IMG/VR virus record: IMGVR_UViG_3300046533_000603
Coordinates: 1-49,174 of that record
DNA length: 49,174 nt
Origin: a virus
Reading direction: 5' to 3' (one strand)
In this document: piece by piece, positions 37,711-39,566 of the stretch
Layout of the letters: the number at the start of each line of letters is the position of its first letter
How positions within the stretch are numbered: the stretch's first letter is position 1
The notes under the pieces: model-generated
Seen by the model: only the letters and a program-made list of their open reading frames with translations
Databases searched by the model: none
Told to the model about the DNA's origin: nothing
Translations under genes and position numbers: made by a program

Positions 37711-38655
37711 ATGCAGACCCGATCTCTCGAAGACGCCTGTCACTCCTACGCCCAACACTCCCGCGCCCCGGGCACGCGCGCCTCGTACCTCCAGAAGATG
37801 GTCCCGTTCCGCGCGTTCTGCGCAGAGCGCGGCGTCAAGGCCGTGCCCGCAGAGCCCGAGACGGTGCGTCTCTACCTCGCCAAGCTCGCGGAGAGCGGAC
37901 TCTCGGTGTCCACCGTGAACCAGTTCCTTTCCGCCATCGGCGAGGCTCACGAGGTCGAGGGGCACCTCTCGCCGCGCTTCCACCCCGCCGTCCAGCAGGT
38001 CTGGAAGGGCATCCGCCGGACGAAGAAGGTCCGCCAGGTCGGCATGAAGCCGCTCCTCGCCGAGCACATCAAGAAGATGCTCGCGGCGACGCCGGACGTC
38101 TCAATGCTGAACGCTCGGGACCGTGCGATCGTCGTCTTCGGCTGGGCCTGCGCGATGCGTCGGCACGAGGTCGTGGACACGCACGTCGAGCACGTGACCT
38201 TCCACGACAAGGGATTCACCGTGCTCATCGAGCGCTCGAAGGAGGACCAGGAGGGCAACGGCTTCGAGAAGATAGTTCTCTTCGGCAAGAACGAGGCGAC
38301 GTGCCCCGTCCGCATCCTCCAGCGCTGGCTCGCCGTGTCCCGCATCACCGAGGGACCCATCTTCCGCCCGGTGAACCGCTGGGGCCGCGTCGTCCAGTAC
38401 GGCGAGCAGCAACGCCTCTGGCCGCAGTACGTCGAGAAGATCGTCAAGCGCCTGATGACGAACGCAGGGCTCGACCACAAGGGCTACGGCGCCCACTCGC
38501 TCCGCGCCGGGTTCATCACCCAAGCCGCGCTCAACGGGCACACCGAGAGCGAAATCATGCGGCACTCGGGCCACTCGAACACCAAGATCGTGCAGCGGTA
38601 CATCCGCATCGCGAACCTCGACAAGAGAAACACCACTGAGGACATGGGGCTATGA
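37711..38655 (+). CDS. Second tyrosine recombinase (XerC-like)
   Basis: 314 residues from ATG 37711; the frame remains open upstream. A SAM-like core-binding domain (T-R-A-S-Y-L-Q-K-M) precedes catalytic Arg150 (C-A-M-R-R-H), Lys177, His262 and Arg265 (H-S-L-R-A-G-F), His288 (H-S-G-H-S-N) and Tyr297. No arm-binding domain, unlike the integrase at 24002. It could resolve genome multimers or invert a segment; no obvious inverted repeat flanks it. Confidence 0.85.
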   Translation: MQTRSLEDACHSYAQHSRAPGTRASYLQKMVPFRAFCAERGVKAVPAEPETVRLYLAKLAESGLSVSTVNQFLSAIGEAHEVEGHLSPRFHPAVQQVWKGIRRTKKVRQVGMKPLLAEHIKKMLAATPDVSMLNARDRAIVVFGWACAMRRHEVVDTHVEHVTFHDKGFTVLIERSKEDQEGNGFEKIVLFGKNEATCPVRILQRWLAVSRITEGPIFRPVNRWGRVVQYGEQQRLWPQYVEKIVKRLMTNAGLDHKGYGAHSLRAGFITQAALNGHTESEIMRHSGHSNTKIVQRYIRIANLDKRNTTEDMGL

Positions 38656-39566
38656 CGCAAGCCGGAGCCCTCTACAACGAGAATGAACCATACGCCGTTG
38701 AATGGCTCCAAAACCTTGAACGCGCGGGGCACATCGCCGCCGGCGCAATCGATCCTAGAAGCATCCGTGCAATCGCCGCCTCCGATCTCCGGGGGCGGCG
38801 ACAAGCCCACTTCTTCGCGGGGCTCGGCGGGTGGTCGCACGCGCTCCGCCTCGCCGACTGGCCAGACGATGCTCCGGTTTGGACCGGGTCCTGTCCCTGT
38901 CAGCCGTTCTCGCAAAGCGGGCGCAAGAAAGGCTTCGCCGACGATCGGCACCTGTGGCCAACGTGGTTCAAGCTCATCGAGGAGTGCCGCCCTCCAATCA
39001 TCTTTGGAGAACAAGTTGCGAGTCCTGACGGTCTCAAGTGGCTCGATCTTGTTCTCACTGACTTGGAAGGAGCGGGTTACGCCTTCGGGACGAGCGATCT
39101 GTGCGCTGCGGGCATCGGGGCTCCGCACATCCGACAACGGTTATACTTCGTGGCCGTCGCCAATGACGAACGATGCAAAGGGCAGCGCCTACACCTACGC
39201 GCAGGGCAATCACGATCGCCCATCGCTCAAGTTGCTCGGGGCGGCACGGCTGGCACACTGGCCAACGCCAGCGGTCACGAACGCGGAGAGGGGCGGAGAC
39301 GCCCGGCGGTGGAAGGGCGAACAGAGCCTCGGGGGACGTCGGAGCAATCTTCAGGATGCCGTGATGACAGCGCCTGGTCCGCCGCCGATTATCTCCCCTG
39401 CACGGACGGAAAAGCTCGCCCAGTTGAACCCGGAACATTCCCGCTGGCTCATGGGGTACCCGCCCGAGTGGGCAAGCTGCGCGCCTACGGAAATGCCATC
39501 GTCCCGCAGGTCGCGGCGACTTTCATCCGAGCTGCTAGGTCCGCCATGATTGAGGTGCAACCATGA
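38652..39566 (+). CDS. DNA cytosine-5 methyltransferase
   Basis: 304 residues. F-F-A-G-L-G-G-W motif I, catalytic S-C-P-C-Q-P-F motif IV with F-G-E-Q-V in place of E-N-V, Q-R-L-Y-F motif VIII, and the end G-K-L-R-A-Y-G-N-A-I-V-P-Q. Methylates cytosine; likely protects from host restriction. Start overlaps the recombinase stop (ATGA). From ~39050 on, third positions suit the overlapping +1 frame better than this one. Confidence 0.85.
   Translation: MTQAGALYNENEPYAVEWLQNLERAGHIAAGAIDPRSIRAIAASDLRGRRQAHFFAGLGGWSHALRLADWPDDAPVWTGSCPCQPFSQSGRKKGFADDRHLWPTWFKLIEECRPPIIFGEQVASPDGLKWLDLVLTDLEGAGYAFGTSDLCAAGIGAPHIRQRLYFVAVANDERCKGQRLHLRAGQSRSPIAQVARGGTAGTLANASGHERGEGRRRPAVEGRTEPRGTSEQSSGCRDDSAWSAADYLPCTDGKARPVEPGTFPLAHGVPARVGKLRAYGNAIVPQVAATFIRAARSAMIEVQP
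38683..39549 (+). CDS. Overprinted reading frame within C5 methyltransferase
   Basis: 288 residues in the +1 frame, 31 bases into the methyltransferase gene. Contains S-A-A-L-Q-S-S-L-E-N-K-L-R-V, L-T-W-K-E-R-V-T-P-S-G-R, T-S-D-N-G-Y-T-S-W-P-S-P-M, L-N-P-E-H-S-R-W-L-M-G-Y-P-P-E-W and C-A-P-T-E-M-P-S-S-R-R. I recognise these as blocks of a widespread phage protein usually annotated hypothetical or methyltransferase-associated. Codon third-position G/C is higher here than in the methyltransferase frame over the second half. Both frames may be translated. Confidence 0.5.
   Translation: MNHTPLNGSKTLNARGTSPPAQSILEASVQSPPPISGGGDKPTSSRGSAGGRTRSASPTGQTMLRFGPGPVPVSRSRKAGARKASPTIGTCGQRGSSSSRSAALQSSLENKLRVLTVSSGSILFSLTWKERVTPSGRAICALRASGLRTSDNGYTSWPSPMTNDAKGSAYTYAQGNHDRPSLKLLGAARLAHWPTPAVTNAERGGDARRWKGEQSLGGRRSNLQDAVMTAPGPPPIISPARTEKLAQLNPEHSRWLMGYPPEWASCAPTEMPSSRRSRRLSSELLGPP

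Follow-up and report, generated by a model that had tools for sequence, protein, structure and literature searches.

Two-polypeptide C5-methyltransferases and the phage locus

M.EcoHK31I recognises YGGCCR and is part of a restriction-modification system, its beta polypeptide of about 176 aa being nested in the alpha gene in another reading frame, and M.AquI recognises CYCGRG. Each of these C5-cytosine DNA methyltransferases (C5-MTases) is made of two polypeptides (PMC3404938). In M.EcoHK31I (source as cited: Lee et al. 1995, in PMC3404938) the larger polypeptide holds motifs I-VIII and X together with the predicted TRD, and the smaller one alone holds motif IX; M.AquI is split inside the variable region, with IX and X both on the small subunit (PMC3404938).

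The window analysed here is the whole of a 49-kb virus record (49,174 nucleotides), and the alpha and beta features given below lie on its + strand. The alpha open reading frame (ORF) spans 38652-39566 (304 aa) and encloses entirely, in the +1 frame relative to it, the beta ORF at 38683-39549 (288 aa from the first ATG). An earlier sequence-only reading had placed both ORFs at exactly these coordinates, and the blocks it quoted are all present: LTWKER, SRWLMGYPPEW and CAPT in frame 38683, and YGNAIVPQ in frame 38652. Upstream of alpha lies an integrase gene (37711-38655) that shares four bases with the alpha ATG, and farther upstream are RecT-like and exonuclease VIII-like genes. The integrase stop codon overlaps the alpha start as ATGA, which suggests coupled translation.

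We read this locus, with a probability of roughly 0.8, as coding for an orphan phage C5-MTase of two polypeptides, alpha and beta, after the pattern of M.EcoHK31I. As in that enzyme, a large subunit (alpha) carries motifs I, IV, VI, VIII and X without IX, and a smaller polypeptide (beta) carries IX; as in that enzyme also, the small subunit is nested in the alpha gene, here in the +1 frame, where it is under selection and, in 182 of the 183 distinct homologous loci, free of stops from alpha codon 70 as far as motif X. Since this division of motifs is the one described for M.EcoHK31I, the locus is filed as an orphan phage M.EcoHK31I-type, a known but rare kind, which is our best reading and likens the two by published motif description, as the collections searched yielded no M.EcoHK31I record. 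Two differences stand beside these likenesses: M.EcoHK31I is a restriction-modification member whereas the present gene is a phage gene adjoining an integrase, and the TRD of M.EcoHK31I is predicted in the large subunit whereas in our locus only beta is constrained over the variable region. With M.AquI the locus shares the build of a C5-MTase from two polypeptides; however, motif X is in alpha and not in the small subunit, and an M.AquI-type split was rejected for this reason. With M.HhaI and monomeric C5-MTases, alpha shares the fold of its catalytic domain and motif X, and it shares motifs I, IV, VI, VIII and X, but those enzymes have IX in the same chain and I before II, whereas alpha is without IX and has II/III apparently before I.

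Conservation and selection in both frames

Eighty viral contigs were fetched by part of alpha alone; as the query was an alpha stretch only, the choice of homologues was blind to beta. In all 80, beta lies in the same +1 phase, and its frame runs without a stop from about codon 70 up to motif X in each of them, against 3-24 stops in the third frame. The first ~70 codons of the beta frame contain stops in most homologues (at codon 22 in 50 of the 80, for example), and the true beta gene is therefore shorter than the 867-base ORF. The frame is likewise open in divergent enterobacterial phages, and seven more phage records, partly divergent and some with a much shorter alpha, have kept both alpha and beta. 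Phage records, viral contigs and contigs of bacterial genomes gave 241 loci by way of either protein, and in each of these alpha and beta are both present, always in the +1 relation. The arrangement looks widespread in phages. One of the 241 loci, L143 from a Dokdonella MAG, has both alpha and beta split across frames and is either decayed or mis-sequenced.

Long unused ORFs are common within the window, and its frame 2, taken by itself, stays free of stops over codons 70-282 in 4.3% of alpha-synonymous shuffles. Both facts would suit a second frame that is only a shadow, owing its openness to a GC-rich composition and its conservation to alpha alone; with such chance openness in a GC-rich window the single sequence alone is unconvincing, and the comparison of homologues is decisive. 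For that comparison synonymous codons were shuffled within each alpha of a set of 68 sequences (identity below 85%): frame 2 is open in 68 of the 68 real sequences, where the shuffles gave 4.7 on expectation and 10 at most. Conservation of beta over this alpha-preserving null is modest until codon ~85 and very strong from codon ~86 onward, reaching 0.65 vs 0.32 for the null in codons 236-283 (0.313 vs 0.296 in control codons 10-60).

Overlap-aware ratios were calculated from 39 independent pairs of related loci, changes being classed as synonymous or nonsynonymous in both frames; the beta ratio is dNN/dNS and the alpha ratio dNN/dSN, with bootstrap 95% ranges in parentheses. In the upstream control (codons 8-64) frame 2 behaves as non-coding, with a beta ratio of 0.93 (0.80-1.07), and the alpha ratio is 0.16. 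Codons 65-105 give 0.72 for beta and 0.19 for alpha, codons 106-170 give 0.40 (0.33-0.47) and 0.26, the variable region (codons 171-235; 39162-39356) gives 0.58 (0.48-0.68) and 0.97 (0.89-1.06), and codons 236-283 give 0.30 (0.24-0.37) and 0.33. Purifying selection is thus seen in both frames, at 0.30-0.58 in beta from codon 106 and at 0.16-0.33 in alpha outside the variable region. The reverse shuffle, with beta preserved, finds alpha strongly conserved across the overlap, codons 171-235 excepted, where the excess is slight.

With beta ratios this far below the control value, and a shuffle test this far from its null, the shadow was rejected as far as sequence allows and keeps a probability close to nil. 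The true dual coding that the sequence-only reading had proposed is borne out by the openness of the frame in homologues and by the overlap-aware dN/dS it had called for, which finds constraint in both frames; the stops in homologues that it had named as evidence against a second protein did not appear in the alpha-chosen set, where beta is open throughout. Its overlap of 867 bases holds for the ORFs; dual coding is supported for about 38,910-39,510 of it. The stretch clearly conserved beyond the level forced by alpha, by codon-shuffle test and overlap-aware dN/dS, runs from alpha codon 86 to about 286 (38907-39510). Third-position G/C in the second half is indeed higher in the overprinted frame (0.72 in frame 2 vs 0.62 in frame 1), a difference that by itself is weak evidence for dual coding. 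Taken as a whole, the comparative data argue that beta is a real second protein under selection, with dual coding over about 38,910-39,510.

Alpha, the proposed large subunit

Alpha (38652-39566) passes the profile cut-off of PF00145 (65.1 bits, cut-off 22) and matches phrog_363 (E 5e-75). Its AF2 model, in which residues 178-239 fall below pLDDT 50, aligns to M.HhaI over 161 residues at 2.8 A (Z 13.6), and alpha is predicted to adopt the C5-MTase fold. We regard it as a putative C5-cytosine DNA methyltransferase large subunit. Five motifs were individually identified: motif I, FAGLGG (38814-38831; E 1e-5 by hhalign to canonical MTases); the alignment-invariant catalytic PCQ of motif IV (38895-38903); FGEQV of motif VI, which is ENV in canonical enzymes (39003-39017); HIRQRLY of motif VIII (39126-39146), motifs IV, VI and VIII being aligned to HhaI; and motif X, YGNAIVPQVA (39486-39515), by alignment. 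Over 45 alphas the PCQ and the AdoMet FxGxG motifs are conserved, PCQ without exception. A motif IX-like window was not found in alpha with a PSSM (best window in only 1 of 80 alphas). Frame 38652 had been said to carry all C5 motifs: the late YGNAIVPQ block of motif X is there as claimed, but motif IX is absent from this frame and was found in the second.

Alpha residues 4-68 (window 38660-38860) contain a II/III-like strand-helix-strand (YNENEPYAVEWL...GAID) before motif I (HFFAGLGGW), and the gap from motif I to PCQ is about 28 residues. The structural alignment with HhaI begins at alpha model residue 4, which corresponds to HhaI residue 34, and the II-like segment matches canonical MTases weakly (P 0.11, vs E 1e-5 for motif I). 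The order of motifs in alpha appears to be permuted, with the motif II/III segment preceding motif I, and this is possibly new.

Beta, the proposed small subunit, and a motif IX-like block

Beta has no match in Pfam or NCBIfam, and its profile found none among PDB sequences; within PHROGs it matches phrog_1008, named DNA methyltransferase (E 2e-28). It carries the block LNPEHSRWLMGYPPEW at 39424-39471, which is spaced like canonical motif IX (LTPRECARLMGFPEEF; LTPRECARIQGFPEEF in L251 and LTPRECARLMGF in others); the beta pattern LNPxHSRWLMGxPPEW has the canonical motif IX spacing. This block is the sole hhalign alignment of the beta profile to the canonical C5-MTase profile, in register and weak (P 0.084). 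The best motif-IX PSSM window falls on it in 59 of 68 betas, at a statistically weak score of 3.9 bits vs a shuffled mean of -3.5 (sd 3.4), and divergent phages retain it (ARQLMGYPQEW in Bas76). On the DNA it directly precedes motif X, the order being that of canonical enzymes and the frame a different one. On these matches a motif IX-like block is present in beta and absent from alpha.

The structure model of beta is of low confidence (pLDDT 58, pTM 0.27), its better parts being an N-terminal conserved helix (SRSAALQSSLENKLR..., 38977-39036) and a predicted hairpin (LFSLTWKERVTPSGRAICALRAS, 39052-39120; block pLDDT up to 90). As the model is poor, the role of beta is without fold support. Together with the weak motif IX match and the lack of Pfam, NCBIfam and PDB sequence matches, this is what speaks for beta being a real but overprinted accessory protein, for instance anti-restriction or regulatory, instead of a methyltransferase subunit. 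We consider that unlikely: beta without alpha occurs in 0 of 241 loci, the motif IX-like element sits exactly where alpha is without IX and just ahead of motif X, PHROGs places beta among proteins named DNA methyltransferase, and a characterised enzyme has the same division of motifs (PMC3404938). Because beta supplies the motif that alpha is missing, our preferred reading is that the two proteins are subunits of a single enzyme.

The initiation of beta

Upstream closure of the frame in phage N15 leaves beta no start before a TTG/ATG at codons 95-96 with AAGG ahead; many homologues begin beta similarly late, at alpha codons 95-97. This usual start is absent from the window, where the nearest candidate is an ATG at 38869-38871; as that ATG has no clear Shine-Dalgarno sequence, the beta start of the window is uncertain. 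Across the family a usable in-frame start of some kind exists in 183 of 183 loci, and starts preceded by a Shine-Dalgarno sequence at codons 88-106 are enriched (99 of 183 loci vs a null mean of 57 and maximum of 71). The codons of motif VI (TTTGGAGAACAAGTTG, 39003-39018) at alpha codon 122 also resemble a ribosome-binding site and a beta-frame start (GGAG-spacer-TTG); among 80 loci, the TTG is found in 78 and a sequence like GGAG in 41. Initiation there could yield a beta of only about 177 aa, at the cost of a conserved helix.

The missing start in the window would also fit a programmed ribosomal frameshift that fuses the front half of alpha to the beta frame, and perhaps back, giving one chimeric monomer with no separate initiation of beta; so would the canonical order of motif VIII, variable region, IX and X, of which IX and X here lie in different frames. 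Besides the enriched Shine-Dalgarno starts and the in-frame start in every locus, what counts against such a chimera is that rejoining motif X needs two opposite frameshifts and that alpha codons 236-288 are conserved far beyond the level forced by beta (z 44-63 in the reverse shuffle). Since this C-terminal conservation of alpha is independent of beta, alpha is translated through; with its distal frame in use the chimera was rejected, and we hold it to be highly improbable.

In the two-subunit reading, alpha would be translated from 38652 and contribute the domain for AdoMet binding and catalysis (motifs I, IV, VI and VIII) together with the closing motif X, and beta, initiated internally and read in the +1 frame, would contribute the conserved helix-hairpin element, the W-P-T-P variable region and motif IX. 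The two would then associate, presumably as a heterodimer, with beta completing the small DNA-recognising domain. A likely role, given that the neighbour identified is an integrase and not an endonuclease, would be modification of the phage DNA as a protection from host restriction.

Variable region and target recognition

Most of the W-P-T-P/D units of beta fall within the variable region (codons 171-235). In the window there are a WPSP unit at 39151-39162 and a WPTP unit at 39259-39270. In beta homologues the W-P-T-P(x3)D-type units near the variable region (window 39151-39270) number one to four, and the length of beta changes with them. These units may be recognition modules. With constraint on this region confined to beta, it is probably beta that does most of the target recognition, contrary to the published prediction; this is possibly new. 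Indels in this region may blur its ratios; alignment noise lifts both of them, however, and the loss of constraint in alpha only is therefore not explained by noise alone. Alpha codons 236-275 are conserved and could still contribute to target recognition. More tentatively, and with odds somewhat short of even, the phage family may have moved target recognition into the overprinted +1 beta and left the variable stretch of alpha as a selection-free linker, specificity then changing via exchangeable W-P-T-P modules with alpha tolerating the outcome.

Annotation and significance

The overlap as a phage-wide family was not found described in a literature search of incomplete coverage. Phrog_363 and phrog_1008 are two separate PHROGs families, and the entries returned do not mention the overlap. 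Annotation is inconsistent among the phage records inspected: N15 and several others have alpha only, PhiXhv-28 has both, Cr-LKS3 ('methyltransferase') and FoX4 and ST20 (hypothetical) have beta only, and SAP012 has neither frame. Gene callers evidently cope badly with a nested alpha/beta pair and usually one of the two genes is annotated. Such one-frame or absent annotation hides a C5-MTase, probably a heterodimeric family, from work on anti-restriction and epigenetics.

The locus exemplifies same-strand dual coding in a form that is clean, common and long-lived, and its two products probably make up one enzyme, so that each frame serves as a reference for the selection acting on the other. 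The region-wise pattern of selection makes the question of which subunit reads the DNA directly testable.
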